A stretch of 58,345 bases of DNA from Clostridia bacterium (GTDB lineage Bacteria; Bacillota; Clostridia; UMGS1810), in the NCBI GenBank assembly GCA_017397885.1, contig JAFQHQ010000023.1:1-58345 (forward strand). Reading direction: 5' to 3'. The notes below the pieces were generated by a model that saw only the letters and a list, made by a program, of their open reading frames with translations, ran no database searches and had not been told where the DNA came from. The position numbers and the translations under genes were made by a program. Below, piece by piece: positions 26,021-58,345 of the stretch; the stretch's first letter is position 1; each line of letters starts with the position of its first letter.

Positions 26021-27424
26021 ATGTTAGATTTTAATTTGAGAATCGGCCTTGTTCCCGATGTTCGTGATCTTGGTGATTTTGACACAAGAAAAGGTATATT
26101 CGATCCCAGAATTGCAAGTAAAATCAAAGACGGTATAATTAAATATATCAAAGATAATTTCACAGACGAACAGACAAGCTTTTGTGACATGGAGTGGCTC
26201 AATCCCCTGGGTGTATACTATAAGAATTCTGATTGTCCGAAGGTTTGTGAATATCTCAAATCAGAAAAGGTTGATGCAATTTTCATCATCAACTGCAATT
26301 TCGGTAATGAAGAAGCATGCGGCAGGCTTGCTAAAAACATGGGTGTTCCCGTTCTTTTGTGGGGACCTCAGGATATGATTTTTGACGAAGACGGTATGCG
26401 TTATACCGACGGTCAGTGCGGGCTTTTTGCCATAAGCAAACAGCTTCGTCGCTATAAGGTGTCGTTTTCATACATAGAAAACTGCCCGGTTGAAAGTCCT
26501 GTTTTTGCTGATGGCTTCAAAAAATTCCTTTCTGTTGCAACAATGGTTAAAAATTTTAAAAAGCTTGCAATAACTCAGGTGGGAACTCGTCTCACACCAT
26601 TTAAAAGTGTAATGTACAATGAGCTTGAAATGACAGAAAAATTCGGGTTTAATTTAAATAATGTTAATTTGCTGAGTTTTGAAAGAAAATTTGATGCTGC
26701 TATGGAAGCTCATAAGGCTGATCTTGAAAAAGACCTTGCCTTGCTCAAAGAAAAATATAACGTGGGAACTTTTGATGACGAATCGCTCACAAAGCTCCTT
26801 TGCTTCGTATATGTATATAAAGAAATCTTTGAAGAAACAGGTGCAGACATTCTTTCAACAGAATGCTGGTCGGCTCTTCCTGCAACCTTTGGTGTTAATC
26901 CTTGTCTTGCAATGAGTATTCTTGCCGATCAGGGCTACCCCGTTGTATGTGAAAGCGACGTTCACGGTGCAGTTACAAATGCACTTCTTCTTTCTGCCGC
27001 GCGCGGAAAGAGGGTTCCTCTTTTCGGTGAGTTCACGGTAAGACATCCCGAAAACAAAAATGCCGAACTCCTTTGGCACTGCGGACCCTTTGCACTTTCG
27101 TGCAAGGCTTGTGACAGTGAAGCTAAGATTTTCAACGGAAAACCTTCCTTCAGAGCTGAAGACGGAACATACACAATTTCAAGATTTCAGGGGGATGAGG
27201 GTAAATACACTCTCCTTGGCGGTAAGTTTAAAACCACCGACGGACCCTATACCTTCGGTACATATATGTGGGCAGAATTCAATGATCTTTCAAAGGTAGA
27301 GAAAAAACTTATCAATGGACCCTACATTCACCATATGTCCGAAATTATCGATGACTATACATGGGAGCTTGAAGAGTTCTGTAAATATATTCCGGAACTT
27401 GAATATGACCCCATCGAAGAATAA
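26021..27424 (+). CDS. L-fucose/L-arabinose isomerase-fold protein
   Basis: This 467-residue cytoplasmic protein has the FucI/AraA architecture: two Rossmann-like N-terminal domains (about 1-165 and 166-310) and a C-terminal isomerase domain. Likely metal ligands are the Glu in LSTECWSALPATFG, the Asp in VVCESDVHGAVTNAL and the His in LLWHCGPFALSC, matching the Glu-Asp-His set of fucose isomerase. Such enzymes convert aldoses to ketoses. It is shorter than FucI (about 590 residues) and is of the uncharacterised isomerase-like branch. As the first gene of a nagA operon controlled by RpiR, it may isomerise a hexose or uronate released with the amino sugar. Confidence 0.75.
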   Translation: MLDFNLRIGLVPDVRDLGDFDTRKGIFDPRIASKIKDGIIKYIKDNFTDEQTSFCDMEWLNPLGVYYKNSDCPKVCEYLKSEKVDAIFIINCNFGNEEACGRLAKNMGVPVLLWGPQDMIFDEDGMRYTDGQCGLFAISKQLRRYKVSFSYIENCPVESPVFADGFKKFLSVATMVKNFKKLAITQVGTRLTPFKSVMYNELEMTEKFGFNLNNVNLLSFERKFDAAMEAHKADLEKDLALLKEKYNVGTFDDESLTKLLCFVYVYKEIFEETGADILSTECWSALPATFGVNPCLAMSILADQGYPVVCESDVHGAVTNALLLSAARGKRVPLFGEFTVRHPENKNAELLWHCGPFALSCKACDSEAKIFNGKPSFRAEDGTYTISRFQGDEGKYTLLGGKFKTTDGPYTFGTYMWAEFNDLSKVEKKLINGPYIHHMSEIIDDYTWELEEFCKYIPELEYDPIEE

Positions 27425-27455
27425 TTATACAACGTGATAAAGAAGGTGATTTACA

Positions 27456-28625
27456 ATGATTATAAAAGGCGGTACTGTAATAACCCCCTTTGAAAAAAAG
27501 TGTGACACAAATGTTATATGCGACGGCGACCGTATAACATCTGTCGGCGGCAACTCATCTGATAAAGATGTGTTTGACGCAACCGGGCTTTTTGTTCTGC
27601 CCGGTCTTGTGGATATTCATACCCACGGCGGATTTGGCGGTGACTATATGGATGCAACCGAAGAATCCTTTGACAAAGCTCTTGCTTTCCAGTCACAAAA
27701 CGGTATTACTTCGGTGCTTGCAACGTCGATGACAGCTCCTGTTGAAGAAATTGAAGCTATGCTTGACATGACACGTAAATATATGAAAAGAGCAGATACC
27801 CCCACAAGAGTTGTCGGAGCCCATCTTGAGGGACCCTATATTTCCTACAAGAAAAAAGGTGCTCAGCCCGAAGCATTTTTGCGTGTTCCCGAAAGAGACG
27901 GTTACGATTTTATACTTAAAAACAAAGACATTATAAAAGATGTTACAATAGCAACGGAGCTTGACGGTGCAATTGACATGGTTAAAGAACTTACCGATTG
28001 CGGCATAATGGTTTCCTGCGCTCACGATGACGGCAGAGAAGATACCATTAAGCCTGCTATTGATGCGGGCCTCAGACACTGTACCCACTGGTACTGTGCA
28101 ATGTCCACAGCAAACATTGTAGACGGTGTCAGAAGTGTTGGTATGATGGAGACCGCTCTCATTGACCCAAGGGTTACAATTGAGCTTATTGCCGATAATC
28201 ATCACATTATTCCCGCATTGCAAAGACTTGCTTATCAAAGCAAAGGGCCGCTCGGAATGTGCGTTGTTTCCGATTGCCTCAGAGCGGCAGGTTTGGAAGC
28301 AGGCGATAACATTTATACTCTCGGAAGCGATGACGGTGTACCGCATTATTTTAAAATTACAAACGGACTTGCAAGACTTTTGGACGGAACATTTGCCGGT
28401 AGTGTACAACCTGTCAGTCAGATGATTAAAAATCTTGTTAATGACGGTCGTATTCCTCTTGAAGACGCTGTTTGCGCCGCTTCATACAGTCCTGCAAAGA
28501 TTATTGGAATGGATAATGAAATTGGTTCCATAAGACAGGGAAACAAGGCAGACTTTTGCATAATGGACAAAGAACTTAATGTTGTTGCAACAATTAAAGA
28601 CGGTAAAGTGGTTTATAAAAAATAA
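27456..28625 (+). CDS. nagA: N-acetylglucosamine-6-phosphate deacetylase
   Basis: NagA removes acetate from GlcNAc-6-phosphate, giving glucosamine-6-phosphate. The 389-residue amidohydrolase has the metal site in GLVDIHTHGGFGGD, the metal-binding glutamate in GAHLEGPYIS, histidines in LRHCTHWYCAMS and IADNHHI, and the catalytic aspartate in VVSDCLRAAG. The THWYCAM and ADNHH variants (usual THLFNAM and ADGxH) mark a divergent branch. The C-terminal IGSIRQGNKADFCIMD strand is typical of amidohydrolases. The gene lies between the isomerase-like gene and a NagB-like gene with short gaps, forming one operon. Confidence 0.88.
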   Translation: MIIKGGTVITPFEKKCDTNVICDGDRITSVGGNSSDKDVFDATGLFVLPGLVDIHTHGGFGGDYMDATEESFDKALAFQSQNGITSVLATSMTAPVEEIEAMLDMTRKYMKRADTPTRVVGAHLEGPYISYKKKGAQPEAFLRVPERDGYDFILKNKDIIKDVTIATELDGAIDMVKELTDCGIMVSCAHDDGREDTIKPAIDAGLRHCTHWYCAMSTANIVDGVRSVGMMETALIDPRVTIELIADNHHIIPALQRLAYQSKGPLGMCVVSDCLRAAGLEAGDNIYTLGSDDGVPHYFKITNGLARLLDGTFAGSVQPVSQMIKNLVNDGRIPLEDAVCAASYSPAKIIGMDNEIGSIRQGNKADFCIMDKELNVVATIKDGKVVYKK

Positions 28626-28649
28626 TATTAACATAAAAGGAGAATCACA

Positions 28650-29471
28650 ATGAACAACACATACACATGCTCACCCGAAGAATTTAAAGCAAATTGTAAA
28701 ATCCCTCTTCGTGTTATGGAATTTGAAGACGACATGTATGAGGAAATTGCGCAGATTATGGTAGATACCATCAAAGCAAAAAACGGTGAAAAAACGCTTA
28801 TTATTTGTCCTGTTGGACCCATTAAGCAGTATCCCATATTTGCTAAAAAGGTTAACGAAGAAAGAATCAGCCTTAAAAATGTATGGTTCATCAACATGGA
28901 TGAATATCTTGACGAAAATGATCAGCTCATCAGCAAAGAATCAATTTTAAGTTTCCGCACAACAATGGATAATCTATGCTATTCTCAGATTGACCCCGAG
29001 CTTGTTATGCCCGAAAGTCAGAGACTTTTCCCGATTCCCGGCAAAGAATCGGAAGCGGATAAGTTAATTGAAGAGATGGGTGCAGACCTTTGTCTTACAG
29101 GTGTTGGTATAAACGGTCACATCGCTTTCAACGAACCTCCCGAAGCCGATGATCCTATTTCCGACTCGGATTTTGAAAACATTTCAACACGTTGCATGAA
29201 CATTGCCCGTGAAACAATTACCAACAACGGCGCAAACAAAATATGCGGTGCACTTGATGTTTTCCCGAAAAGATGCATTACACTTGGTATGAAACAGCTT
29301 CTTTCTGCAAAGAAATTCAAAGTATATCTCTATTGCAACTGGCAGTGGGGCATAATGAGAAAAATCGGTCTTGAAGATGCTAATAAAACAGCTCCCGCAT
29401 CCTTCCTCCAACATCATCCCGATGCTGAAATGGTTGTAACGAAAGACCTTTATGAAAAGATGGTTTTTTAA
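28650..29471 (+). CDS. nagB: Glucosamine-6-phosphate deaminase/isomerase-like protein (NagB-like)
   Basis: NagB converts glucosamine-6-phosphate to fructose-6-phosphate and ammonia. The 273-residue protein has the NagB/6-phosphogluconolactonase fold: the catalytic aspartate lies in FINMDEYLDEN and the active-site loop reads GVGINGHIAFNEPP with the His and Glu kept. The Asp of the standard GxGxDGHIAFNEP loop (Asp141 in E. coli) is Asn here, a change I associate with a separate NagB-like branch. The C-terminal SxxKFKVYLYCNWQWG region also differs from E. coli NagB. Its place after nagA supports the deaminase role; the exact substrate needs a test. Confidence 0.78.
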   Translation: MNNTYTCSPEEFKANCKIPLRVMEFEDDMYEEIAQIMVDTIKAKNGEKTLIICPVGPIKQYPIFAKKVNEERISLKNVWFINMDEYLDENDQLISKESILSFRTTMDNLCYSQIDPELVMPESQRLFPIPGKESEADKLIEEMGADLCLTGVGINGHIAFNEPPEADDPISDSDFENISTRCMNIARETITNNGANKICGALDVFPKRCITLGMKQLLSAKKFKVYLYCNWQWGIMRKIGLEDANKTAPASFLQHHPDAEMVVTKDLYEKMVF

Positions 29472-29484
29472 TACTTTAAAAAAT

Positions 29485-29514
29485 AAATAACGGACTTTTT
29501 ACAGTCCGTTATTT
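29485..29514. terminator. Shared terminator between the nag operon and the convergent AraC gene
   Basis: AAATAACGGACT (29485-29496) pairs with AGTCCGTTATTT (29503-29514). T-runs follow on both strands, and the stem includes the stop codon of the minus-strand gene. Confidence 0.85.
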
Positions 29515-30321: not shown

Positions 30322-30452
30322 ACAAATCACCTCTGAATGTTTTTTACAATAAAACTTGACTATTGTTTTGAGTATAACACACAAATTTAAAATATACAAT
30401 ACAAAAATTATTTTTTTATGGTCAAAAGAACCACATATTATATTTGATTGCA

Positions 30453-30486
30453 GGAATTTTTATAAAAAAAGCGGAATTAATATAAA
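30453..30486 (+). promoter_or_regulatory. Direct repeat pair, candidate AraC-type operator
   Basis: GCAGGAATTTTTATAA and GCGGAATTAATATAA share GGAAT at 30453-30457 and 30473-30477, 20 bp apart. They lie upstream of the oxidoreductase promoter. A matching pair precedes the SLH operon at 34360-34393. Confidence 0.45.
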
Positions 30487-30514
30487 TGATTGTTTTGTAC
30501 AATAAAATACTGTT

Positions 30515-30543: not shown

Positions 30544-30584
30544 ATAAAATTGAATCATAATATTACGATTGGATGGATACATAT

Positions 30585-32577: not shown

Positions 32578-33477
32578 ATGGATAATAGGAAGAATAATAA
32601 AAACTTTGAATTCATGAAATATTTCTTTAATCAACCGTTTAAAATCGGTGGGTATGTTGTTTATCAGGTTGGTGAAACAAAGCTTGAAAAACAAGGCTTA
32701 ATCCACAGTCATGTTCAGATTTGTAATGAAATAACATGTGTTTTGTCAGGCAGAGGAACATTTTCTGTAAATGGTAATAAACATAAAATCAGCCAGGGAG
32801 ACATTCATCTTGTTTCAAAAGGGGATATTCACGAAATTAAAACCGACTCTTCCGACGGCATTCGTTTTGCATATCTCGGTTTCGATTTTGAAGACTATGA
32901 TGATGTAATACATAATCTCAAAAGTTTTTATGACAGATGCCCCAAAAATGTCGTTGCTGATAAAGGAGAGATTTCAACTTTTTTCCGCATGTTAATCAAA
33001 GAGTGGTATGAAGAACCTGAAAATCATTTGATGGTTATTTCATCAATTTTAAATTGTTTGCTGACATATGTTAAACGTTTGTTTGAAGACGGTAATGAAT
33101 ATGTTTTTTTATCAAAAAAAGCTGATCCTGTTGTTGGCGGTAATGCATATACTATTTTGCATTATATTGATACTAATGTTATTAATATCTCAAATTTAAA
33201 AACTATTGCAGAAAAATTCGGTTATACCGAAAATTATGTTTCTCATTTGTTTAAATCTAAAACAGGAATGAGCATAAAAAAATATATTATGTCAGAAAAA
33301 ATGAAGCTTGCGGCAGATATTTTGGTTAATACCGGTTGCACAATAACCGAAGTTGCCGAAAGGCTGGGCTACTCATCTTCACAATCTTTTTCTCGTATGT
33401 TTCGTGCTAACATGGGCTGTTCTCCGTCAGAGTTCAGGCAAAAATCTTTAAAGACAACCGCACTACAGTATAATTAA
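32578..33477 (+). CDS. AraC-family transcriptional regulator with cupin sensor
   Basis: This 299-residue regulator has an N-terminal cupin (about 30-125, with IHSHVQICNEITCVLSGRGT and SQGDIHLVSKGDIHEI) and a C-terminal AraC DNA-binding domain. The two recognition helices lie in TIAEKFGYTENYVSHLFKSK and TITEVAERLGYSSSQSFSRM. The start follows a strong ATAGGAGG site. The promoter at about 32520-32548 has a perfect TATAAT but no good -35, which suggests activator dependence. It is followed 19 bases later by a second oxidoreductase and may control the SLH-lyase operon further downstream. Confidence 0.88.
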   Translation: MDNRKNNKNFEFMKYFFNQPFKIGGYVVYQVGETKLEKQGLIHSHVQICNEITCVLSGRGTFSVNGNKHKISQGDIHLVSKGDIHEIKTDSSDGIRFAYLGFDFEDYDDVIHNLKSFYDRCPKNVVADKGEISTFFRMLIKEWYEEPENHLMVISSILNCLLTYVKRLFEDGNEYVFLSKKADPVVGGNAYTILHYIDTNVINISNLKTIAEKFGYTENYVSHLFKSKTGMSIKKYIMSEKMKLAADILVNTGCTITEVAERLGYSSSQSFSRMFRANMGCSPSEFRQKSLKTTALQYN

Positions 33478-33496: not shown

Positions 33497-34339
33497 ATGA
33501 AAATAGGTTTTATAGATAAATATCTTGATGAATGGCATGCAAATAATCTTCCCACATGGCTCAGGGAAGAAACAGACGAAATTGAAGCGATTTATTGCTG
33601 GGAATCAATGCCTTCTCCAAACGAAGGCGGCATTGACGGCAGAAAATGGGCTGAGAATCAAAACGCAATCTACTGCGAAACCGAAGAAGAGGTTATCGAA
33701 AAGAGCGATGTGCTTATTGTTCTTGCTCCCAACTATCCCGAAGAACACGAAGTCCTTTGTGATAAGGCTCTCAGAAGCGGTAAGTTTACTTATGTTGACA
33801 AGACCTTTGCTCCGACTGTTGAAGCCGCAAAGCGAATGATTGAAAAAGCTAAAATTCATAATACTCCAATGTTTACAACAAGCGCACTTCGTTATGCAAA
33901 GGAACACGAAGGTGTGAATAGTGAAAACATTGCTACATATTCTTCAAGAGGTCCCGGTCCCCTCGAAATGTATTCAATCCACCAGATTGAACCCATGGTC
34001 AAATACATGGGAACCAACCCCGAAGCAGTTATGTTTATCGGAACAGAAGACAGCCCTGCATATGTTGTTAAGTTTGCAGACGGAAGATTTGCAACAGCGG
34101 CACATTTTGACTGGAGTTGTCCTTTTAATATTTCAATCAAATATTCTGATGACAAACCTGCCTCCTACATCACCGATTGCACCGACTTTTTCCCTATGTT
34201 TGTAAAAGATCTTGTGAGATTTTTCAAAACGGGCGAATCAAAAGTAAGCTTTGACGATACCCTCGCAGTTATTGCAATTCGTGAAGCAATTTTAAAAGCA
34301 AAAAATGTTCCGGGAGAATGGCTTAAAACTAATTTATAA
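33497..34339 (+). CDS. Gfo/Idh/MocA-like oxidoreductase, short form
   Basis: This 280-residue protein looks like a Gfo/Idh-type dehydrogenase. The N-terminal Rossmann domain has KSDVLIVLAPNYPEEHEVLC and the EKP-equivalent loop reads KFTYVDKTFAPTVEAAKRMI, with DKT in place of EKP. The C-terminal domain contains SIHQIEPMVKYMG and AHFDWSCPFNISI. The usual GxGxxG loop is replaced by MKIGFIDKYLDEWHA, so cofactor binding may differ or be lost. It shares a strand and a 19-base gap with the preceding AraC regulator. Confidence in the family is moderate and the substrate is unknown. Confidence 0.68.
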   Translation: MKIGFIDKYLDEWHANNLPTWLREETDEIEAIYCWESMPSPNEGGIDGRKWAENQNAIYCETEEEVIEKSDVLIVLAPNYPEEHEVLCDKALRSGKFTYVDKTFAPTVEAAKRMIEKAKIHNTPMFTTSALRYAKEHEGVNSENIATYSSRGPGPLEMYSIHQIEPMVKYMGTNPEAVMFIGTEDSPAYVVKFADGRFATAAHFDWSCPFNISIKYSDDKPASYITDCTDFFPMFVKDLVRFFKTGESKVSFDDTLAVIAIREAILKAKNVPGEWLKTNL

Positions 34340-34453: not shown

Positions 34454-35905
34454 ATGAAAAAGTTAATTTCAGTCTTATGTGCTTTTGCAATGGTTTTTTC
34501 ATGTGTCATCGCAGCTGCACAGCAAGATGAACAGATTTTGGCAGGCGAGGAAAAAACGCTTAAAATCAGCGAGCAGTATTCTGAAAAGACTCTTCTTACT
34601 GTTACAATTGCCTCAGCAGATGTTGAAAACGTAAATTCTGCTAATCGTCCTGTGTTTATGTATCTTTATTCAACAGATTCCAAGGGTCTCTTTGAAGAAG
34701 ATATCACGCTTTCATCAGCTTGGAACAGCGGAAGATACACAGTGTACATCGACGCACCTTCCGATGCAAGACAGTTTGATTTTTTCTATGTTAATCCCGA
34801 AAGTGCAACCTCTCTTGCGGTTGTAGATTCCATAAACGGCTGTACAACAGGTGACGAACTTTTTGAGCTTTTAACAACCGACGATAACGCGGCTCTTTTA
34901 GGTCTCGATAAATCAGATGAACTCTTTGTATCCTATGCCAAAGATGCTCTTGACTATGCTATCGAATCCAAAGACGGCGACTTCACTTTTGAATCCTTTG
35001 AAAAAGCTTTTAATGACGGATTAGCCGCCGCCAAGCTTCTTGAAAACATCAAAAATGCTGAGGTATACGGAGAGCTTGAGGACCTTGTCAAAGAGAATGC
35101 CGATATTTTAGGTGTGGATTTTGACGGCGACTATGAAGATGTTAAACAAAAATCAAAAGTTTTTGTTGAAATGTTTAAAAACATCGACGAAATTGAAGAT
35201 TTGACATCAGTTTCCGAGGTCTTTGACGATGCAGTCAAGAAAGTTTTGAAGGACCAGAAAAAAACAAGCTCCTCGGGCGGTTCTTCGTCAGGTTCTTTCG
35301 GTGGTTCATCAACAATTGTTCTTCCGTCAACCGACCCCGTTGAACCAATTGTTCCGGTTGTTCCTATTCCGGATACTTCTTTTAAATCATACAGCGACAT
35401 TAACGGTCACTTTGCAAAAGACGCCGTTTCCGGTCTTTCGGCTAAGAACATCATCTCCGGCTATCCCGATGGCACTTTCAAACCCGATAACGGAGTTACA
35501 CGTGCCGAATTCGCAAAGATAGCAGCTCTTGCTTTTGGTTACGAATCAAAGGTGACCGGAGTTTTTGCCGATGTTACGGCGGATGACTGGTTTGCAGGTT
35601 ATGCAGATGCCCTTGCAACTGCAGGAATAATAAATGGATATGACGGTATGTTTAATCCCAATGTCACAATAACCCGTCAGGATGCTGCGTGCATTATCTA
35701 CCGACTTATCAATCAGAAGCTCTCGGCAGAAGAAGCTGAACTCTTTGACGATAATGCAGACATCAGTGATTATGCAAAGGAAGCAGTTGCCAAACTTCGC
35801 GCATCAGCTGTTGTCAACGGAAGTAACAATATGTTTTTCCCTCTTGCAAACATAACACGAGGTGAAGCGGCTGTTATGATTACCAATGCACTTAATGTGA
35901 AATAA
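34454..35905 (+). CDS. Secreted SLH-domain surface protein
   Basis: This 483-residue protein starts with a signal peptide (MKKLISVLCAFAMVFSCVIA, cut near residue 22). The N-terminal part (about 30-125) looks like a beta-sandwich. A helical, acidic region follows (about 130-265), then a Ser/Gly linker (SSSGGSSSGSFGGSS) and a Pro/Val stretch. Three C-terminal SLH modules (about 315-483) carry the turns GVTRAEFAKIA, TITRQDAACII and NITRGEAAVMI, so it should attach to the cell wall. It is the first gene of an operon with a second SLH protein and two lyases. It may anchor or organise those enzymes. Confidence 0.85.
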   Translation: MKKLISVLCAFAMVFSCVIAAAQQDEQILAGEEKTLKISEQYSEKTLLTVTIASADVENVNSANRPVFMYLYSTDSKGLFEEDITLSSAWNSGRYTVYIDAPSDARQFDFFYVNPESATSLAVVDSINGCTTGDELFELLTTDDNAALLGLDKSDELFVSYAKDALDYAIESKDGDFTFESFEKAFNDGLAAAKLLENIKNAEVYGELEDLVKENADILGVDFDGDYEDVKQKSKVFVEMFKNIDEIEDLTSVSEVFDDAVKKVLKDQKKTSSSGGSSSGSFGGSSTIVLPSTDPVEPIVPVVPIPDTSFKSYSDINGHFAKDAVSGLSAKNIISGYPDGTFKPDNGVTRAEFAKIAALAFGYESKVTGVFADVTADDWFAGYADALATAGIINGYDGMFNPNVTITRQDAACIIYRLINQKLSAEEAELFDDNADISDYAKEAVAKLRASAVVNGSNNMFFPLANITRGEAAVMITNALNVK

Positions 35906-46564: not shown

Positions 46565-46566
46565 AT

Positions 46567-46807
46567 TAAATTGGAGTTTGTCGGGGTGATTGAAGATGGA
46601 ATTGACACCGGAGCGAGAGCCTCCCTTGTGTAAAGGGAGGGGCACCGCTTAAGCGGTGGAGGGATTGTAACAAACTGCCTCAATTGCAGTATTTGTAATT
46701 GTTTGAGAGTTTATTATTTAACAATCCCTCAGTCACTTCGTGACAGCTCCCTTTACACAAGGGAGCCTTTCGTCCTTGTGTTAAACACTCCGACAAACCC
46801 CAATTTA
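46567..46807. repeat. 241-bp palindromic repeat, copy 1 (MITE-like)
   Basis: The ends form a 22-bp terminal inverted repeat (TAAATTGGAGTTTGTCGG at the left, CCGACAAACCCCAATTTA at the right). Inside are paired blocks such as CTCCCTTGTGTAAAGGGAG and its near inverse CTCCCTTTACACAAGGGAG, plus hairpins ACCGCTTAAGCGGT and GTCACTTCGTGAC. It encodes nothing. A same-length copy lies at 53357-53597. The outer TA on both ends fits a TA-targeting transposase acting in trans. It lies in the 408-base gap after the second lyase. Confidence 0.85.
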
Positions 46808-48202: not shown

Positions 48203-48222
48203 GAAGAAAAAGGGTGGTAAAA

Positions 48223-50571
48223 TTGAAAAAAAGCATGAAGAAAATTCTTGCATCGTTGCTCACTGTGGCAATGATTGCAACACTTGTTCCTTTTGCAGCT
48301 TTTGCAGAAGAAACGGTTGACACAAGCTTTGTGTTTGGTACGGGTTCCTACGGTTCGTTTAGAAGTCAAGGAATTCCGGGTGTTCAGATTGGTGGTATTG
48401 GTGGTAAAGCACAAGACGATTTGTCGATGGCTTTTGTTGTTGATTCTGATTTTAATGGTCAGGAGTCGAGATGGGAATATCCAACAACTCATATTTCTGC
48501 GGATGATATTGGTAGCGGTGGTACTAAAGGAATGTATTGCAGTTTCAATATGTATGCCGATGGTGATACTGTTGTTGGTGTTGGTTATGCTTCAAATTTA
48601 TCAGCAATTCTTAAATGGGAAGCTGATGGTACATTAACTTATAATATTGAAAAGGTTAATCATACCATAATGCTTGAACGTGGTAAATGGCACAAGGTTG
48701 TAATATCAGTGTGTGAGGGTGTGGGTCAAAGAGTCGGACTTTTTATTGATGGTGTACTTTTGAGTACAACTTCAGATCCCGGTTGGTCAGGTTGGGCAAG
48801 TAAAACTCCTTTTCTCTTTGGAGTTCCACAAACTTGCGGAACAGGTACAGTGGCTTTCGATGATCCATATTTGACTTTGTGGACAGACTATAACACATAT
48901 GGCAAAACAATGAAGGCTAATGATGTTGCAATAGCTGCAAACACGGATTCCTTAACATTTGACACAGAGGCTAAAACGATTTCGCTAAACCACTATCCTG
49001 AAAGTTATGATGCTTTTGTTGCAAGCGTTGCAGAGGGTTTTACCAACGAAACTGAAATCAGAATTCTTACTGAGGATATGTCCGCTGTGGCAACAACTGT
49101 TGAAGATGCAAAAATAGCTCTTGTTAAAACAATAAATAATGCATATGATTATTATACTTTCAATGAGTATGTTAAAACCGACATGGAAAAAGTTGGTCTT
49201 GAAGCATCCGGTAATGTGAACATTATAGTAAATGATGATAATGTTGTTGTTATGTCTAATCCATATGTGGGAGCAGGTATGATAACATCTGCGAATGTGA
49301 TTAATGCTCTTTCATCATCAGAAAATTTCACTTTGGCTTATGTTAATGCCGATAAAGAAGAAGTGGCAGTTAATCATGTTACAAGCGGATACATTAAAGC
49401 AACCAAAGATGGTGAAGATACTATCTATATTCCCATTATCAGTGAAATGCCCGGCAGCAGAGTCAGTGATTTGATATACAATCAAGGTCATGGAAGTTCA
49501 GACATTGCAACAATTGTAAATGAGGAACAAACTGTTGCAGGTGTAACAACAAATGTTCAGGGCTTTATAACAAAAGAAACAGTCGGATCCAGACGTATTC
49601 AGTTTAATCCTACATCATATGATGCTACATCAAAGACGACAAATATTACTTTCACATATGTATTTAATATGTATGCAGATGGCAATGCGGATGCATGGGT
49701 TGGTTATGGTTCGGGTTATCCGCTCTTCAAATGGGATGCAAATGGTGATGTCTACACAGTTTCTGAAAGTTCAGCATTAGCTTATGATACAACTGCGGTT
49801 ATGAATATTCAAAGAAACAGATGGCATCAGATTTCTGTTACCGTCGATAAAAAAAGAAATCGTCCTATCATACATATTGACGGAAAGCTTTTGAAACCTT
49901 CCTACAGTGATGACTTCCCGTATAGTGGTATCCATTATCTGGCTCTTTGTGTAACCGGTAAAGAAGTTGCAAACGATAAAGTTTTATATAGTGATGTTAC
50001 CTATTATGAAGGTTTTTATACCAAAGGAAATGAATTTGTAGAATCTGTTTCTCCAGCTACTGACTTCGCCATTGATATGGATAACAACATTATCTATTAT
50101 CAGAATATTGGTGTTCAGGAACTTAAAGATTTAATTCTTGCAAATACAAACGCTTCAACAGCAATGGTATATGCAGACAATACATTTGCTTCAGAAGCAA
50201 CAACTCTTGATAACAATTCAAATGTTGTAGTTCTCACATCACCCAACGGTTTCAGATATGAATACTATACATTGAAAGATTATTCCGAAATTCCTGCTCC
50301 CGAGTTTGCATTTGACCTTGGCGAAACAACATTTACTGTTTCTGCAAAAATCAAAGCAGATTATACAGGTTCAACAATTTATGTTGCAACATACACAAGC
50401 GACAATACTTTAGTTGCAGTTACCCCCATAGCTTTGGATGCATCTGATTATAACACAGAGTTTTCCCAGAAATTTGCATACGGTGGCGGCGGACGCAAGA
50501 TAAAAGTATTCCTTTGGGATGGTGAGCAGAATCCTGTTTCCTTTGCAGAGGCAGACAGACCCGCTGAATAA
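48223..50571 (+). CDS. Secreted protein with two LamG-like domains, tandem paralogue 2
   Basis: The product of about 782 residues has a signal peptide (cut after AFA near residue 27). It carries two LamG-like domains (about 30-225 and 405-605), each with FNMYADG and a RGKWHKV or RNRWHQI strand. A third sandwich ends the protein with KIKVFLWDGEQNPVSF. The start is TTG at 48223, by exact analogy with the next gene, which has ATG at the same distance from the same AAAGGGTGG site. Its codons are visibly more T- and A-ending than those of its neighbours over most of its length, a sign of separate ancestry. The function is unknown, probably glycan binding. Confidence 0.75.
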   Translation: MKKSMKKILASLLTVAMIATLVPFAAFAEETVDTSFVFGTGSYGSFRSQGIPGVQIGGIGGKAQDDLSMAFVVDSDFNGQESRWEYPTTHISADDIGSGGTKGMYCSFNMYADGDTVVGVGYASNLSAILKWEADGTLTYNIEKVNHTIMLERGKWHKVVISVCEGVGQRVGLFIDGVLLSTTSDPGWSGWASKTPFLFGVPQTCGTGTVAFDDPYLTLWTDYNTYGKTMKANDVAIAANTDSLTFDTEAKTISLNHYPESYDAFVASVAEGFTNETEIRILTEDMSAVATTVEDAKIALVKTINNAYDYYTFNEYVKTDMEKVGLEASGNVNIIVNDDNVVVMSNPYVGAGMITSANVINALSSSENFTLAYVNADKEEVAVNHVTSGYIKATKDGEDTIYIPIISEMPGSRVSDLIYNQGHGSSDIATIVNEEQTVAGVTTNVQGFITKETVGSRRIQFNPTSYDATSKTTNITFTYVFNMYADGNADAWVGYGSGYPLFKWDANGDVYTVSESSALAYDTTAVMNIQRNRWHQISVTVDKKRNRPIIHIDGKLLKPSYSDDFPYSGIHYLALCVTGKEVANDKVLYSDVTYYEGFYTKGNEFVESVSPATDFAIDMDNNIIYYQNIGVQELKDLILANTNASTAMVYADNTFASEATTLDNNSNVVVLTSPNGFRYEYYTLKDYSEIPAPEFAFDLGETTFTVSAKIKADYTGSTIYVATYTSDNTLVAVTPIALDASDYNTEFSQKFAYGGGGRKIKVFLWDGEQNPVSFAEADRPAE

Positions 50572-50634: not shown

Positions 50635-50674
50635 GATGTGTGCAACAATAGATTTTAATGAAAAGGGTGGTAAA

Positions 50675-53101
50675 ATGAAAAAAACAATGAAAAAACTTCT
50701 TGCTTCAATTCTCGCTCTTGCAATGGTTCTTACACTTGCTCCGCTTGCTTCTTTTGCAGAAGAAGCAGTTGAAGAGACAGTTGACACAAGCTTTGTGTTC
50801 GGCAGTTCCTACGGTAGCTACAACAACACAAAGGTTCCCGTGTATGAACTTGGTGGTCTTGGCGGAAAAGCTGCCGATGACACAGCAATGGCTTTCGTTT
50901 ATGAAGGTGAAGAAGCAACAGCCGATGTTACAAGATGGTACTATCCCGTAACTCACCTTGACGAAACCGTATATGCAAGCTCCGGCTCAGGCCCCAGCGT
51001 TCACTTTGCATTCAACATCTATGCTGATGGCGGTGCAATAGCAAGAATGGGTTATAACAATTCCTACAATTTGCTTTTGTGGCAGCCCGACGGCACAGTT
51101 AATTACACCGATGACGGTGTTGCTAAAACCATAACCATGGAACGTGGCAAATGGCACAGAGTTGCTGTTGCTTTAAACAACAATGGCGGTGGTCGTTTTG
51201 CGCTCTACATTGACGGTGTTAAGCTTGCTGAAAAAGCCGATGCAAGTTGGAATGCAAATATCGATGCCAAGCTTAATCTTTCATTCGGTATCGAAATAGG
51301 CTCAACAAAAGGTACTGTTGCCTATGACGACCCCATGGTAGGCTTTGCACAGACCAATGATGAAAAATATAACAATACGGTAGCACCCGATGATGTGGCA
51401 AAAGCAGAATCCACATCTCTCATAAGCATTGACACAACAGCAAAAACTCTTGTTGCAAAAACTCTCTTTACCGATTATACCGAGTTTATGACTGCAGTTT
51501 GCGAAAGCTTCACAAATGAATCTGAAGTGCTTTTCTACAATGCAGATATGAGTGCAAGCGCAACATCTGTTGAAGAGGCAAAAACTGTTGTTGTAAAAAC
51601 AATCAACGGTGCTTATGAATATTACACGGTTGATGAATATGAATTGACACCCATTGATATCATCGGTCTCAAAAAGACGGCTGATGACTCTACAATCGCT
51701 GACGATAACTGGAAAGGTAACATTCAGATTGTAGGAAACGAAAAGGTTGCAGTATATTCCAGCACACTTCGCAATCTTTCCTGCGTATCTTCCGAACGTT
51801 TGATTGAAGGTCTTGAATCTGCAAACGGATTCACACTTTCTTATGTTGATGAAAACAAAGAAGATGCAGTTTCCGACAGTGTAAACAAGGGCTACATTAA
51901 AGCAACAAAAGAAGGCGTAGATGATATCTATGTTGAAATCGTTGACAAATACAACTATGTTTCCTATGGCGATTTAAGTGCATTTACACTTGATAAACGT
52001 GGTGCAACACCAACAAATGCAACAGGCGTTGCAGGAAAAGCTGCTGATGATGTTTCCTACGGTTTTGCCGCAAGCGTACACACCTGGAAAGATGCAAAAT
52101 ATTATCACAGTGTTGAAGATGTTATCTCGGTAAATCCCGACGGCACACGTACATATGTTTTCAACATGTACACCGAAGGTGATGCAGTGGCTCGTATTGC
52201 CATGATGTATGGCACAAGTGCATACTATGTTGCAAAATGGGACGGTGCAACAGGTGATTTCTATGGACCAAAAGGCCCATCAAACAATACATCTCAAGGT
52301 ACATCAATGTCCGCAACTCCCGACTTAAACCTTGCAACAGGTCGTTGGCATCAGGTTGCAATCACAATGGACAGAGGTACCGGCGGAAGAATTGAAATGT
52401 ATGTTGACGGTGTTCTTTTACAAAGAGTAATCGATGAAAACCTTGGTTGGAACAACTATACAGGCATTGGCTTTGGTGTTGGTTATGAAGAGTCAACAGG
52501 TAAGGTTCTTTTTGATGACATCGAAATCTACAACGGTTTCTATGACAAAGATGCATCCGCAGTTGCTCACAAAACCTCATCAAAAGATTTTGCCATTGAC
52601 TGTGCAAACAAAGTTATATACTATCAGAACATGACTTCTGCATCAGAACTTAGTGCGGCAGTTCTTGCAAATACAACTGCATCCTCTGCAAAGGTATACA
52701 CCGACGAAACTTTCGCTGCAGAAGCTGCAGAACTTACAGCCGACACCGTTGTATGGGTTAAGTCTCCAGATGGATTAAGAGACGAATACTACACTCTCAA
52801 AGCTTATTCCGAGCTTCCCGAACCCGTAGTTTCAATCACTCCTTCTGTATCGACATTTACAGTTGAAATGAGCCTTGCTTCAAGTGCCGAAGATTATGTT
52901 TGCTATGTTGCAACCTATAATGAAGCAGGAAAGCTTGTTACAATAACAACACTGCCTATGACTGAGGATATGGTTTTCAATACCTATTCAAAGAAGCTTG
53001 CTTACGGTGCAGGCGGAGTAAGTGCGAAAGTATTCCTCTGGAAAAACAGCATTGCTCCCGTAGCATATGCAGAAGCTGAGGCACCCGTACCGGCTGAATA
53101 A
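50675..53101 (+). CDS. Secreted protein with two LamG-like domains, tandem paralogue 3
   Basis: This 808-residue protein is the closest relative of the preceding one. A signal peptide (MKKTMKKLLASILALAMVLT, cut after SFA near residue 29) is followed by two LamG-like domains (about 35-225 and 410-625). These contain HFAFNIYADGGAIARMGY, MERGKWHRVAVAL and TGRWHQVAITMDRG. A final sandwich has VCYVATYNEAGKLV and SAKVFLWKNSIAPV. I start it at 50675, after AAAGGGTGG. The upstream frame has no initiation signal. No cell-wall anchor is seen. It closes the LamG-like array before a GC-rich hairpin. Confidence 0.76.
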   Translation: MKKTMKKLLASILALAMVLTLAPLASFAEEAVEETVDTSFVFGSSYGSYNNTKVPVYELGGLGGKAADDTAMAFVYEGEEATADVTRWYYPVTHLDETVYASSGSGPSVHFAFNIYADGGAIARMGYNNSYNLLLWQPDGTVNYTDDGVAKTITMERGKWHRVAVALNNNGGGRFALYIDGVKLAEKADASWNANIDAKLNLSFGIEIGSTKGTVAYDDPMVGFAQTNDEKYNNTVAPDDVAKAESTSLISIDTTAKTLVAKTLFTDYTEFMTAVCESFTNESEVLFYNADMSASATSVEEAKTVVVKTINGAYEYYTVDEYELTPIDIIGLKKTADDSTIADDNWKGNIQIVGNEKVAVYSSTLRNLSCVSSERLIEGLESANGFTLSYVDENKEDAVSDSVNKGYIKATKEGVDDIYVEIVDKYNYVSYGDLSAFTLDKRGATPTNATGVAGKAADDVSYGFAASVHTWKDAKYYHSVEDVISVNPDGTRTYVFNMYTEGDAVARIAMMYGTSAYYVAKWDGATGDFYGPKGPSNNTSQGTSMSATPDLNLATGRWHQVAITMDRGTGGRIEMYVDGVLLQRVIDENLGWNNYTGIGFGVGYEESTGKVLFDDIEIYNGFYDKDASAVAHKTSSKDFAIDCANKVIYYQNMTSASELSAAVLANTTASSAKVYTDETFAAEAAELTADTVVWVKSPDGLRDEYYTLKAYSELPEPVVSITPSVSTFTVEMSLASSAEDYVCYVATYNEAGKLVTITTLPMTEDMVFNTYSKKLAYGAGGVSAKVFLWKNSIAPVAYAEAEAPVPAE

Positions 53102-53212: not shown

Positions 53213-53257
53213 TCTTGTGTTACAAAGAATTTGTAAACAAAAGCATGGTTTTTTTGA

Positions 53258-53286: not shown

Positions 53287-53356
53287 GAAATTTTTCTTAA
53301 CAGAAACAAAGTTTAAACGTACTGTTAAAGTTTGTGATTATTCTAATCAGAAAATA

Positions 53357-53597
53357 TAAATTGGAGTTTATCGGGCTGTTTGAAGATGAAATGAACACCA
53401 GAGCGTTGCCTCCTTTGTGTAAAGGGAGGGGGACCGCGTAAGCGGTGGAGGGATTGTAACAAACTGCCTCAATTGCAGTATTTGTGCTTGCTTAGGATAT
53501 TTATCATTTAACAATCCCTCAGTCACTTCGTGACAGCTCCCTTTACACAAGGGAGCCTTTCGCACTTGTGTTAAACAGAGCGACAAACCACAATTTA
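53357..53597. repeat. 241-bp palindromic repeat, copy 2 (MITE-like)
   Basis: Same length and layout as the copy at 46567-46807, roughly 85-90% identical by eye. Its ends are TAAATTGGAGTTTATCGG and CGACAAACCACAATTTA. The central block GGTGGAGGGATTGTAACAAA is unchanged between copies, while the tips and the middle spacer vary. It lies upstream of the GH20 gene. Confidence 0.85.
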
Positions 53598-53679
53598 AAA
53601 ACTTTGCTTTCGCTTACAAATTCTTTGTGAATCAGAGAACAACAATAATATAAATTTTTATAACTTTGGAGGGATAACA

Positions 53680-55455
53680 ATGATTTTTCCAACCCCGAAA
53701 CACGAACAGTATTTTGAAAAGTCATATGCAATGAAAGCCTATGACGAAAATCTCGACCTTTTGTATCTTTATGAAAAATACAAAAACGGTAACGAAGATT
53801 TGACAATCAAAAATGATGTTACACTCAAAGAAGATGCCTACATTCTTGAGATTGACGAAAACGGTATCACAGTTACGGCAGGGTATGAAAACGGTGTTTT
53901 CAGAGCTGTTACAAGCTTAAAACAGCTTCTTAAACAAAACGGAGCAAGTCTTCCTTACTGTGAAGTTAAGGATGATCCCGATTTTGTTAAACGTAGCTAT
54001 ATGCTCGACATCAGCCGTTGCCGTATGCTAAAGCCGGAATACATTTGTCGTCTCATTGACCTTCTTGCTGACCTCAAATACAATGAGTTCCAGCTCTATA
54101 TGGAAAGCTTCTGCTTCAAATACGATACTCTCAGCGAATACACAAAAGACTTTGACTGTCTCGATGCCGACGACATCAAATTCCTTGACCAATACTGTGC
54201 TGACCGTTTCATAGATCTCGTTCCGAATCAGAACTGCTTCGGACATCTTGCACTGTGGCTTGACCAGGACGAATTCAAACATCTCAGAATAGGTAACGAC
54301 GAAGTTAACACAGGCACAATCAATCCTCTCCTTGATGAATCCTTTGAATTTGTTGATAAGCTTTTCTCTGCTCTTTTGCCAAACTTCCGTTCGGAATATG
54401 TTAATATCGGTCTTGACGAAGCATACGGTCTCGGTAAATATCAGATTGAAGAGCTTTGTAACGAGATTGGTCCCGAAAATGTATTTATGGACTGGCTTAA
54501 CAAAGTTGCCGATCACATTAAGAAAAAATACAACAAAAAAGTTCAGTTCTGGTCAGATATGGTTTGCGGCTATCCCGAAAGCTTTAAAAGAGTTCCCGAA
54601 GGTGCAATTGCTCTTAACTGGGGCTATGACATAGCCAAAACAGCTCTCCTCGAACGCCGTTGTATGGATCTTAAAGCCAAAAATACCCCTTACTACATCT
54701 GCCCGGGTAATGCCACCTGGATTGCGCTCACGGGTCGCTTTGATGTTTGCAGTGTGAATCTTCGTGCCTGCGGTGAATTTGGAAGAGAACACGGTGCAAT
54801 CGGCTACATGGTAACCGACTGGGGATGCGGCGAGGGTCACACCCATTTCCCCGTGTGGAGTCTTGTTCCTGCAGCTCTCGGCGGTCAGTATGCATGGAAT
54901 GTGGGTGAGCCTCAAAACGGCGGTACACTAAAAGCTCACAACATACACAACTCCGAAAAATATATTGACGAAAATATATTTGGCGGTGCAAAGGTTTCAC
55001 GCTGGCTCTATAAGCTTGCTCAGTACTATCTCCTTGAACCCGAAAGAATTCACTGCTCAACAATGTGCGGTTTCATCATCAGAAAGCCTTTGAATGAAAC
55101 TGCTGTTGAACCATTCTTCGACCTGAAAGATTGCGGCGATGATTTCTACTTTGAAAATGTAACAGCATATGTTCAGAAATGTATTGATGCAGTTGAAAAA
55201 ATTGACTTTGACGAAAATTGGAAACGTCAGGTTATTGTTAATGCAAAAATGGTAATTTTGTCTTCCGACCTTTGCATAATCCGTATGCATCAGACCGCAG
55301 AAAACGATGAAATCGACCGTTTGGTTGCTCTTATCGACGAGATTCACGAAGAATATACATACCTTTGGGACAAAGAAAATTATCCCGAAGGAAAAGACCA
55401 CTTCCTCTCACAGATTCGTGACAGAAAAAAAGAACTTTTGGCAATGAGAAAATAA
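53680..55455 (+). CDS. Glycoside hydrolase family 20 (beta-N-acetylhexosaminidase-type), intracellular
   Basis: This 591-residue protein removes terminal beta-linked N-acetylhexosamine if it acts as the family does. The small N-domain (about 1-100) ends with GVFRAVTSLKQLLKQNG. The TIM barrel starts at KRSYMLDISRCRMLKPEYIC. The catalytic Asp-Glu pair is at residues 246-247 (NIGLDEAYG), and an aromatic subsite reads ALNWGYD and later YMVTDWGCGEG. No signal peptide is present, so it acts on imported oligosaccharides. GGAGGG precedes the ATG. A ceramidase-like gene and a GH88 gene follow closely, forming a catabolic operon. Confidence 0.83.
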   Translation: MIFPTPKHEQYFEKSYAMKAYDENLDLLYLYEKYKNGNEDLTIKNDVTLKEDAYILEIDENGITVTAGYENGVFRAVTSLKQLLKQNGASLPYCEVKDDPDFVKRSYMLDISRCRMLKPEYICRLIDLLADLKYNEFQLYMESFCFKYDTLSEYTKDFDCLDADDIKFLDQYCADRFIDLVPNQNCFGHLALWLDQDEFKHLRIGNDEVNTGTINPLLDESFEFVDKLFSALLPNFRSEYVNIGLDEAYGLGKYQIEELCNEIGPENVFMDWLNKVADHIKKKYNKKVQFWSDMVCGYPESFKRVPEGAIALNWGYDIAKTALLERRCMDLKAKNTPYYICPGNATWIALTGRFDVCSVNLRACGEFGREHGAIGYMVTDWGCGEGHTHFPVWSLVPAALGGQYAWNVGEPQNGGTLKAHNIHNSEKYIDENIFGGAKVSRWLYKLAQYYLLEPERIHCSTMCGFIIRKPLNETAVEPFFDLKDCGDDFYFENVTAYVQKCIDAVEKIDFDENWKRQVIVNAKMVILSSDLCIIRMHQTAENDEIDRLVALIDEIHEEYTYLWDKENYPEGKDHFLSQIRDRKKELLAMRK

Positions 55456-55475
55456 ATTTAAATGGAGGTATATCT

Positions 55476-56759
55476 ATGAAAGCAGCAGTTTACGAAAGTG
55501 ATATTACCCCTCCGTTGGGATGTTACATGACCGGCTACGGCAGAGACCGCCGTGCCAAAGAAGTCTACAGTAAATTACATGCAAAATCTCTTGTAATCGA
55601 ACAAAACGGTAAATACGCCGTGGTTATTTCGGTTGATATTTGTGAATATCCTTCCGAAATGCCGGAAATTGTTACCAAAAGAATTGAAGAATACACCGGC
55701 ATCAAACCCGAATGCGTGTGCATCCATTCTACCCATGCCCACTGCGGTGCACCCGTAACGGATAATCCCAACATCAATTGCTTTGCTGACCCCGAATATA
55801 AGCATGTATTTTTCCGTCTTGTTGCCGATTCAGCAATTCTTGCCTTCAATCGCCTTGATGATGCAAAGCTCTATTTTGCAAAAACAGAGGTTCCCGGCAT
55901 TGCAAGAAACCGTTGCTCTGTTCTGAAAGACGGTACCCTCAAAACCTTTGAGGTTGACCCCGAAAAGATTGAGCGACCAATCACAGAGCCCGACAACAGT
56001 CTTCCTGTTTTGATGATAGAACAAAAGGGCGAAAAAATCGGTGCTCTCTACACCTTCGGATGTCATCAGGACACAATGGGCAGAAAGCCTGTTGACGGCT
56101 ACAGCGGCGATTATTCGGCTTTTGTGTCGGAACATCTGAAGGATGTTTACGGCAGACATTTTGTAAGCATCTACCTTGCTGCTCCCTCCGGAGACATCAA
56201 CACCTTCAATCCCTTTGGCAAAACCGAAGAAGAAAAATCGTGTCGGTATGATAAAATAGCCCTTAAGCTTTCCGATGCAATCAAAAGTCTTGATTCCTTT
56301 GAAGAAATTGACGGCGAGTTAACCGTAGTTAAAGAAAAAGTCGTTCTCAGAAAAAGAATGTATGACGATGATGAATTTTACAAGCTTCTCGCTCAATATG
56401 CTGATGCAAAATCACTTTTCCAGATTTCAAATCTGGTATACTACAAGAAAACAGAAGCCGATGTTCCCGTTGATATGTATGTTCAGGTGATTTCAATAGG
56501 GGACTTTGCACTCTATGTTTATCCCGGTGAAATGTTTTGCGAATATTCTCACCGCACAAAGGCGAGATCTCCATTTAAGTATAACATGGTTTGTGAAAAT
56601 TCAAATGCATATGGCGGCTATGTTCCTGTTCCCGAGGCCTTTGTTCCCGGGAACAAGCTCTACGAAACATCACCTGCCTACGACAGCTACCTTGAAGTTA
56701 ACGCAGGAGAAATTCTTTATGAAAATATTATGAGAATAGCAAAAGAAATTAAAAATTGA
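55476..56759 (+). CDS. Neutral/alkaline ceramidase-like N-terminal domain hydrolase
   Basis: This 427-residue protein resembles the N-terminal catalytic domain of neutral ceramidase. The opening ESDITPPLGCYMTGYG, SVDICEYPSEMPEIV and HSTHAHCGAPV segments match, with the metal-binding histidines in the last. A third histidine lies in TFGCHQDTMG, and the later APSGDINTF motif is also typical. No signal peptide or C-terminal ceramidase domain is present. Stand-alone forms are common in bacterial carbohydrate clusters, and their substrates are unknown; amide bond cleavage such as N-deacetylation of an amino sugar is a plausible guess. It lies between GH20 and GH88 with gaps of 20 and 10 bases. Confidence 0.77.
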   Translation: MKAAVYESDITPPLGCYMTGYGRDRRAKEVYSKLHAKSLVIEQNGKYAVVISVDICEYPSEMPEIVTKRIEEYTGIKPECVCIHSTHAHCGAPVTDNPNINCFADPEYKHVFFRLVADSAILAFNRLDDAKLYFAKTEVPGIARNRCSVLKDGTLKTFEVDPEKIERPITEPDNSLPVLMIEQKGEKIGALYTFGCHQDTMGRKPVDGYSGDYSAFVSEHLKDVYGRHFVSIYLAAPSGDINTFNPFGKTEEEKSCRYDKIALKLSDAIKSLDSFEEIDGELTVVKEKVVLRKRMYDDDEFYKLLAQYADAKSLFQISNLVYYKKTEADVPVDMYVQVISIGDFALYVYPGEMFCEYSHRTKARSPFKYNMVCENSNAYGGYVPVPEAFVPGNKLYETSPAYDSYLEVNAGEILYENIMRIAKEIKN

Positions 56760-56769
56760 GGTGAACAAA

Positions 56770-57990
56770 ATGATTGGCAGAAATGACATTAAAATCAATA
56801 ACCCCGAAAGATTTAAAGGCAATCATTCAATAGCTCCCGAAAAACTAAAAAAAGCTATTGAAAAAGCAACAGGCAAGCTTGCTGCAAAACTTGAACTTTA
56901 TACAGATTACTTTCCTCAGAACATGAGAAAAAACTGTTATCATCTTTATGAAATGGGCGAGAACAACAACTGGCAAAGCGGTATGCTCACCGGATGTCTC
57001 ACTCTTGCCTATGACCTTACCGGGGACAAAAAGTTTTTAGATACTGCCCTCGGTCACATTCCGTCATATCAGACAAGATATGCCAACAGAGCGGAACGCA
57101 GGTATGATATGAACTCTCACGATGTGGGATTTGCTTTTTCTCCCTCCTGCGTTGCTCTTTACAAAATTACCGGCAATGAAGAGGCAAAAGAGCTTGCTCT
57201 TAATTCTGCAAGACATTTTTACAATGTTGCATACACTGAAAGAGGGGAATTTGTTCTTCGTTCGCCCCTCCGTGCAACAGAAGAATGGGCTTGTCGTACT
57301 ATGATGGACACCCTTATGAATGTTCCTTTGCTTTTCTGGGCGGGTGAAGAGCTTAACAATACTCGTTTCACGGAAGCTGCATACAATCAGAACAAAAAAA
57401 CCCGTGACCTTCTCATTCGTGCCGACGGTTCATCCTATCATCACTATCAGTTTGACATCGATACCCACGCTCCCGTAAAAGGCGTAACCTTCCAGGGACA
57501 CCGCGACGAATCAACCTGGTCAAGAGGTCATGCATGGGGCATTTACGGTTTCCCCGTGGCATATGACTACACCGGTGACGACTCCTTCCTTAAGGTTCAG
57601 AAAGATCAGATCGCATTTATGCTCAATCACCTTCCCGAAGACAATGTTCCTTACTGGGATTATGATTTCACAGACGGAGACGAACCTCGTGACACCTCTG
57701 CCGGTGCAATTTCAGCCTGTGGTATGCTTGAAGCTCTCAACTATATGGAAGAAGACGATCCCGACAGAGAAATTTATTATAATGCCGCTTGTATGCTTGT
57801 TGAGGCAATAATCGATGGCTACACCGGAGAAACCAACAAAAACGGTCAGTATTATGACGGACTTTTCTGGGGATGTACCGGTGCAAGACCCTTTGATCTT
57901 GGCATCGAGGGCTGTGCGCTATATGGTGACTATTTCTATCTTGAAGCACTCCTCAGGCTCACCAATCCCGACTGGAAGAGATATTGGTAA
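56770..57990 (+). CDS. GH88 unsaturated glucuronyl hydrolase
   Basis: GH88 enzymes remove the 4,5-unsaturated uronic acid that lyases leave at the non-reducing end of oligosaccharides. The 406-residue alpha/alpha barrel shows the family residues: MNSHDVGFAFSPS with the key Asp, GVTFQGHRDESTWSRGHAWG with the second Asp/Arg region, and DTSAGAISACGMLEAL. No signal peptide is present, so it works in the cytoplasm. GAGGTG stands 6 bases before the ATG at 56770; a GTG at 56761 overlaps that site. Together with the heparinase-type lyases upstream it strongly implies a uronic-acid polymer as substrate. Confidence 0.9.
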   Translation: MIGRNDIKINNPERFKGNHSIAPEKLKKAIEKATGKLAAKLELYTDYFPQNMRKNCYHLYEMGENNNWQSGMLTGCLTLAYDLTGDKKFLDTALGHIPSYQTRYANRAERRYDMNSHDVGFAFSPSCVALYKITGNEEAKELALNSARHFYNVAYTERGEFVLRSPLRATEEWACRTMMDTLMNVPLLFWAGEELNNTRFTEAAYNQNKKTRDLLIRADGSSYHHYQFDIDTHAPVKGVTFQGHRDESTWSRGHAWGIYGFPVAYDYTGDDSFLKVQKDQIAFMLNHLPEDNVPYWDYDFTDGDEPRDTSAGAISACGMLEALNYMEEDDPDREIYYNAACMLVEAIIDGYTGETNKNGQYYDGLFWGCTGARPFDLGIEGCALYGDYFYLEALLRLTNPDWKRYW

Positions 57991-58018
57991 TTAAAATATA
58001 ATAATTTGGAGGCGCAAT

Positions 58019-58345
58019 ATGAAAAAACTAACAAAAATCATAGCTGGCATCTCGGCATTTGTTCTTTTAGCTTCTGCTTTTGCAGGCTGTGAAGGTAACA
58101 ATGTCCAAACCCGAAGAAAATCCGACGGAAAAAGCTTTACCTATTGGGTTAACCTGGATGGCAGTACTCAAAACGCAGGGCTTACAAACAACAACGAAAT
58201 GTTTCTTTATCAGGAAATGGAAAAGAGAACCGGCGTTCACATTGATTTCATTCATCCTGCTACCGGCACTACCGGTGAAGCTGCAACAACAATGTTCCTT
58301 GATGAAGTTCTTCCCGACATCATCAAATACAGCTGGGATCAATAT
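58019..58345 (+). CDS. ABC-transporter solute-binding lipoprotein, N-terminal part (runs off the right edge)
   Basis: The first 109 residues are visible. A lipoprotein signal peptide (MKKLTKIIAGISAFVLLASA) ends in the lipobox AFAGC with Cys24 as the acylation site. The mature part reads FTYWVNLDGSTQNAG, then EMEKRTGVHIDFIHP and DEVLPDIIKYSWDQY, as in family 1 extracellular sugar-binding proteins of the LplA type. TTGGAGG precedes the ATG. No stop codon is reached before the window ends. As the fourth gene of the GH20-GH88 operon it probably feeds unsaturated oligosaccharides to an ABC permease encoded beyond the edge. Confidence 0.85.
   Translation, partial: MKKLTKIIAGISAFVLLASAFAGCEGNNVQTRRKSDGKSFTYWVNLDGSTQNAGLTNNNEMFLYQEMEKRTGVHIDFIHPATGTTGEAATTMFLDEVLPDIIKYSWDQY

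Follow-up and report, generated by a model that had tools for sequence, protein, structure and literature searches.

The window analysed here (the whole 58,345-nucleotide stretch of DNA) carries a real polysaccharide-use system and represents a new Gram-positive variant of such systems. Its core (34454-55455) is probably a single copy of an ordered polysaccharide-utilisation cassette that the genome repeats. In it, a pair of SLH proteins, SLH-A and SLH-B, would act as scaffold and PL35 lyases would attack a glucuronate-hexosamine polymer. An earlier note on this DNA, which had read it as a single island for a glycosaminoglycan (GAG)-like polymer, was right in part. It missed that the genome has approximately 25 comparable loci, of which the island is one.

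The window is the entire contig C195 of a metagenome-assembled genome (G000; 3.06 Mb, 77% complete) from an uncultured gut Clostridium. The nearest named relative of the window, Clostridia bacterium RGIG1656 (goat cecum), has a copy of the second lyase that is 98% identical. DNA identity with a sister genome (G001) is approximately 91 to 97% across most of 25.0-53.4 kb. Given that identity, and given that a second species with proteins 22 to 58% identical preserves the order of the genes, the genes of the window are not chance reading frames. ORFs were called mechanically, and every gene named in the earlier note is present as an ORF, the last being incomplete at the contig end. The cassette is preceded by an AraC-type regulator identified with Pfam (32578-33477, +), a homologue of which precedes SLH-A in another species (G002, locus L170), and by a Gfo/Idh/MocA-like protein (33497-34339, +) directly upstream of SLH-A, with a homologue adjoining a GH20 and SLH-A/B locus in the sister (G001:C125). 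A third SLH protein lies at 10123-12018, beyond the stretch that the earlier note covered. It is 631 aa long with SLH at the N terminus and is followed by an 823-aa protein (12048-14519) without any family; similar N-SLH proteins of 620 to 636 aa are found divergent to lone SLH-B genes in distant Clostridia and in Monoglobus.

SLH-A (34454-35905, +) includes a signal peptide, a variable N-terminal region, an SG-rich linker and three C-terminal SLH repeats (Pfam SLH, E 4e-35; paralogue alignment). SLH-B (35917-38535, +) includes a signal peptide and an N-terminal SLH trimer, followed by about 690 aa of beta-rich domains. Pfam recognises SLH in four of nine SLH-B paralogues and the window copy falls below the cut-off, but its SLH domain is supported both by a family profile (E 6e-11 to the SLH domain of Sap) and by a structural model, which places the trimer at residues ~31-206 (Z 14.8 to SpaA-SLH) and contains only beta domains in the remainder. 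SpaA-SLH binds a pyruvylated wall polymer. The beta region is not covered by any family in Pfam or NCBIfam, both of which were scanned. Past the trimer, confidence in the SLH-B model is too low for a fold assignment (six sequences, mean pLDDT 69), and its OB-like matches (Z 6 to 9) are at the level of common folds. The proposal of a Gram-positive system based on SLH proteins is supported by the 150 SLH repeats scored across the genome, and no SusC/D was found among the window proteins scanned.

SLH-B genes were counted from a genome-wide profile search and from 972 kb of contigs that were then read because they carry SLH-B or lyases. These contain 41 SLH-B genes. SLH-A directly precedes 26 of the 41 on the same strand (gaps of -17 to +23 bp); in four others an ORF in which PL35 and SLH modules are fused stands directly upstream instead, and three more are placed at contig ends. 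For 25 of the 41, a PL35-type lyase is located within 8 kb, and in 15 cases it is the gene that comes next. Random neighbours among the ORFs read would give approximately two A-B pairs compared with the 26 observed, with a base rate of SLH-A that is already high (32/532 ORFs) since the contigs are a chosen set. The neighbourhood counts are lower bounds since many contigs are broken by a dispersed repeat, of which the window has copies at 46.6 and 53.4 kb. Gene order is also kept at low identity in other clostridial genomes, as the earlier note had suggested should be examined. G002 (another species) retains all eight genes in order (SLH-A, SLH-B, two lyases, three LamG proteins and GH20), with 22 to 31% identity to the window for SLH-A, SLH-B and the LamG proteins and 39 to 42% for the lyases. 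The order A-B-lyase-lyase occurs in G007 (another genus) and G043 (another family), and A-B-lyase in G091 (another family).

The dispersed repeat is about 245 bp long and MITE-like, with terminal inverted repeats (AAATTGGAGTTTGTCGG ... CCGACAAACCCCAATTT). One copy (46563-46807) is outside the coding content of the cassette and a second lies at 53356-53600. A DNA search covering the repeat returned 37 matches for G000 and 36 for the sister, mostly to the repeat itself and often at contig ends; it has no match in Rfam. We considered an assembly misjoin at the 53.4-kb copy. This is thought unlikely because the LamG-GH20 order recurs in G002 and in one locus of the sister.

The two giant lyases of the cassette are both secreted and both include Hepar_II_III_C and DUF4962 domains. 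Lyase 1 (38551-42768, +; 1405 aa) has its catalytic module at about aa 574-1110 and a C-terminal CBM32-like F5/8C domain (PDB 8khv, E 8e-67; 9o3q, E 8e-61). In lyase 2 (42782-46564, +; 1260 aa) the catalytic module covers about aa 656-1195 (8khw, E 5e-71; 9o3q, E 4e-67). They match three solved PL35 GAG lyases (GAGase II, 8KHV; GAGase VII, 8KHW; and the Bacteroides caccae PL35 enzyme, 9O3Q) along the whole length of the catalytic module (E ~1e-60 to 1e-71) and share with them the PL35 architecture of a DUF4962-type toroid and a Hepar_II_III beta domain. Residue mapping shows that both retain the catalytic Asn192, Tyr246 and His401 together with the Mn ligands His403, Asp405, Asp421 and His457, the residues proven in GAGase II (PMC12088678). 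At the Asn191 position, beside the catalytic Asn, the window lyases have Ser while the chondroitin-preferring B. caccae enzyme has Thr. They differ from the three solved enzymes in their length (1260 to 1405 aa), their long N-terminal and CBM modules, their origin in Clostridia and the presence of about 50 paralogues.

These paralogues were counted with a profile derived only from the three solved enzymes (E < 1e-15), which identified 51 ORFs with PL35-type modules in G000, some of them fragments. Among modules covering the relevant site the catalytic Asn is retained in 51/51, Tyr in 50/50 and His in 38/48. Just 17 keep the catalytic residues and also all four Mn ligands; the set therefore includes at least three active-site classes and not every paralogue need be a classic lyase. 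A second class (for example, in contigs C66, C110, C159 and C216) carries Asn at the Asp405, Asp421 and His457 positions and Gln at His136; such modules possibly work without Mn. In a survey of 391 Clostridia genomes, G000 and its sister headed the PF07940 first-look candidates (45 and 56; the next had 38 and 30), and G000 would thus be an unusually lyase-rich specialist.

Three secreted LamG-like jelly-roll proteins follow the lyases. The position of the first (46973-48202, +) is conserved in loci L045, L046, L047 and L049; the second (48214-50571, +) has no Pfam match of its own but is 40% identical to the third (50636-53101, +), which has two jelly-roll domains (Pfam Laminin_G_3 and Polysacc_lyase; low-confidence model). 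No function was assigned from the model (pLDDT 65), whose matches, including the glucuronan lyase 2zzj, are to generic jelly rolls. The GH20 beta-N-acetylhexosaminidase (53680-55455, +; Pfam E 1e-14, with PDB GH20 matches) occupies the same position in L047 and L049. It is followed by a cytoplasmic protein resembling the N-terminal domain of neutral ceramidase (55476-56759, +; Pfam E 5e-13), by a GH88 unsaturated glucuronyl hydrolase (56761-57990, +) and by a probable solute-binding lipoprotein (58019-58345, +). This last gene carries a lipobox; only its first 109 codons precede the contig end, and the fragment has no Pfam match. Inspection by eye located signal peptides on the lyases, SLH proteins and LamG proteins and none on GH20, GH88 or the ceramidase-like protein. 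Genes for the latter adjoin GH88-like genes in C112, C141 and G003 and share a locus with one in C194. Two His motifs and a PGE motif, which we take to correspond to the ceramidase zinc ligands, are conserved in five copies; a PDB sequence search returned no match, and a role as N-deacetylase is a guess. When 55463-58345 is compared with contig C136 of the sister, GH20 is shared, but the ceramidase-like-GH88-lipoprotein stretch that follows it is not at that place in the sister. The downstream end is variable between the two genomes.

GH88 aligns end to end with the unsaturated chondroitin/hyaluronan disaccharide hydrolase of Streptococcus agalactiae (SagUGL; PDB 3anj/2zzr, E 6e-76), with conserved HDxGF and xxDxLxN motifs and with the two active-site Asp residues aligned. 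The streptococcal lyases belong to PL8, unlike the PL35 enzymes found here. A GAG-like polymer, as proposed earlier, is supported by a PL35 module whose catalytic site is intact and a GH88 closest to SagUGL. The statement that sulfatases are lacking held among the sulfatase-family (PF00884) matches of G000: none shows the S1 motif C/S-x-P-x-R, and the best is a 596-aa membrane protein. This is not proof since the genome is 77% complete, but it agrees with the preference of PL35 enzymes for unsulfated or lightly sulfated GlcUA polymers (PMC11262172, PMC12269599). An unsulfated polymer of uronate and hexosamine is a good candidate substrate, though still unproven.

PL35 substrates do vary, however (GAGs and, in one case, alginate), and the specificity of PL35 and GH88 may have drifted towards a plant, fungal or bacterial acidic polysaccharide such as glucuronan or a bacterial capsule. 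The dozens of diverged lyases in several active-site classes would fit such a substrate, as would the origin of the sister genome (a herbivore hindgut), the lack of sulfatases and the presence of rhamnosidase and GH39 among SLH-B neighbours at other loci. Monoglobus, a cultured carrier of the A-B pair, is a pectin specialist. On the other hand, the window lyases keep every GAGase catalytic and Mn position tested, GH88 is nearest to SagUGL, and GH20 is more frequent than any other Pfam family in the SLH-B neighbours scanned (7/74). We regard a substrate that is not GAG-like as a real possibility, somewhat on the doubtful side.

The role of the SLH pair can also be questioned. SLH-A and SLH-B might be ordinary structural S-layer proteins duplicated together with neighbouring enzyme genes and taking no part in glycan capture or enzyme display. 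SLH-B is largely generic beta structure, and in distant Clostridia a lone SLH-B, with an N-terminal SLH protein as its neighbour, stands apart from sugar genes. Cultured Monoglobus pectinilyticus has a similar lone copy near ribosomal genes, in addition to two SLH-B genes that each overlap by 8 bp an upstream 2068-2092-aa protein with C-terminal SLH. (The Monoglobus records concerned, L191, L192 and L193, are labelled 'plasmid' in PLSDB but carry chromosomal genes, with ribosomal proteins on L191, and look like chromosome fragments.) For a structural coat, however, 41 diverged copies per genome, mostly beside sugar enzymes, would be odd, and the direct A-B order, the co-divergence with lyases and the lyase-SLH fusions tie the pair to enzymes. 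Mantel tests (5000 permutations) gave r = 0.71 between SLH-A linkers and SLH-B beta regions and r = 0.78 between SLH-B and the nearest lyase (p < 0.0003 in both). Of 20 proteins scanned, four long ones of the SLH-A type also contain a heparinase II/III domain; since the 20 include the PL35-SLH fusions described above, these two counts of four may overlap. Duplication of the block as a unit, with no physical contact, could suffice to explain the co-divergence of A, B and lyase. We nevertheless consider a purely structural role unlikely. The earlier suggestion that SLH proteins work with lyases lacking an SLH module of their own is supported by this adjacency, co-divergence and fusion.

The pair is not specific to lyases, an interpretation that we rejected. 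The SLH-B family is present in 70 of 98 relatives searched, and A-B pairs are found even where a genome has no PL35 lyase or PF07940 match, which argues against a pair bound to these enzymes. In one such genome (G012), for example, A-B pairs lie beside CBM9, GH and solute-binding proteins. Since it occurs without PL35 lyases and with other sugar genes, the A-B pair looks like a general surface module that, in G000, is mostly used with lyases.

An RpiR regulator (-) and an isomerase-nagA-nagB operon (+) occupy 24971-29471 as a neighbouring but separate module. The earlier note had included the operon in the island, completing the path from lyase to NagA and NagB; it adjoins the cassette in both G000 and G001 and its products would suit the released hexosamine, but such a full-pathway island is improbable, since the operon is absent from the other cassette copies read and, in relatives, the isomerase heads an iol-like operon even in a genome that lacks lyases. 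This operon includes a FAD oxidase, an Fe-S protein, a class II aldolase, a PfkB kinase and IolB (at least in G007, G009, G013 and G025). In G009, a genome with no PF07940 match, it contains nagB and nagA as well. We therefore rejected the operon as a member of the island. The gene called an isomerase (26021-27424) exists as an ORF, but its match to a sulfoquinovose isomerase model is weak and a PDB sequence search gave no match. In G000 the remaining genes of the iol-like operon are on contig C213. KduI was considered as the next step and rejected, as the best PF04962 match, on C213, proved to be IolB; a second match is in a lyase locus on C138.

For the repeated cassette with its SLH pair as scaffold, the sequence itself shows which modules are present, the catalytic residues, the order of the genes and its recurrence, the co-divergence and the lyase-SLH fusions; from these we infer the following substrate, scaffold role, import route and order of steps. 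Once secreted, SLH-A and SLH-B would attach to the cell wall through their SLH trimers as a surface scaffold particular to each locus. This scaffold would capture the polymer, retain the secreted lyases at the cell, or do both. The PL35-type lyases would cleave the glucuronate-hexosamine polymer by beta-elimination, using Asn, Tyr, His and Mn, with LamG-like and CBM32 modules aiding polymer binding. Unsaturated oligosaccharides would then be imported by an ABC system. A Gram-positive PUL, on a loose definition, groups enzymes, a regulator and ABC transport in a single locus; of the transport part, the window includes only the start of the binding lipoprotein before the contig ends, and solute-binding proteins adjoin A-B pairs in G012/G008. 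In the cytoplasm, GH88 would remove the unsaturated uronate and GH20 would release N-acetylhexosamine.

Several known systems resemble parts of this scheme. Bacteroides caccae PUL25, directed to chondroitin, also combines PL35 with GH88 for an unsulfated chondroitin-type polymer and has a hexosaminidase in the locus, but it is Gram-negative and includes GH109 and a GH154-type dehydratase (PMC12269599); the window has the SLH-A/SLH-B pair and GH20. SLH surface proteins of other Clostridia, including Monoglobus pectinilyticus, are likewise anchored to the wall by SLH. Monoglobus shares the A-B tandem, but no PL35 gene was seen in those of its loci that were read, unlike the window. In the SusC/SusD loci of Bacteroidetes, as with SLH-A/B, a diverged protein pair marks many loci per genome beside matching glycan enzymes. 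The two pairs are not homologous. SLH-A/B proteins are anchored to the wall by SLH, there is no outer membrane and transport would be through ABC systems.

We tentatively propose, as an idea which may yet prove wrong, that SLH-A/SLH-B plays in Gram-positives the functional part of SusC/SusD. Each wall-anchored pair would belong to its own locus, co-evolve, capture a single polymer and hold the enzymes for it, and in Monoglobales and other Clostridia a genome would use dozens of such loci in parallel. Our literature searches, in which subscription journals are poorly covered, returned no description of the pair. For the polysaccharide-use loci of Gram-positive gut bacteria, no genomic marker is agreed on. 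Should the pair serve as one, it could help to locate many such loci in uncultured Clostridia and to match them with substrates, as SusC/D has allowed for Bacteroides. The genome studied here is a source of dozens of diverged PL35-type enzymes, and Monoglobus, being in culture, provides a direct test system for the pair.
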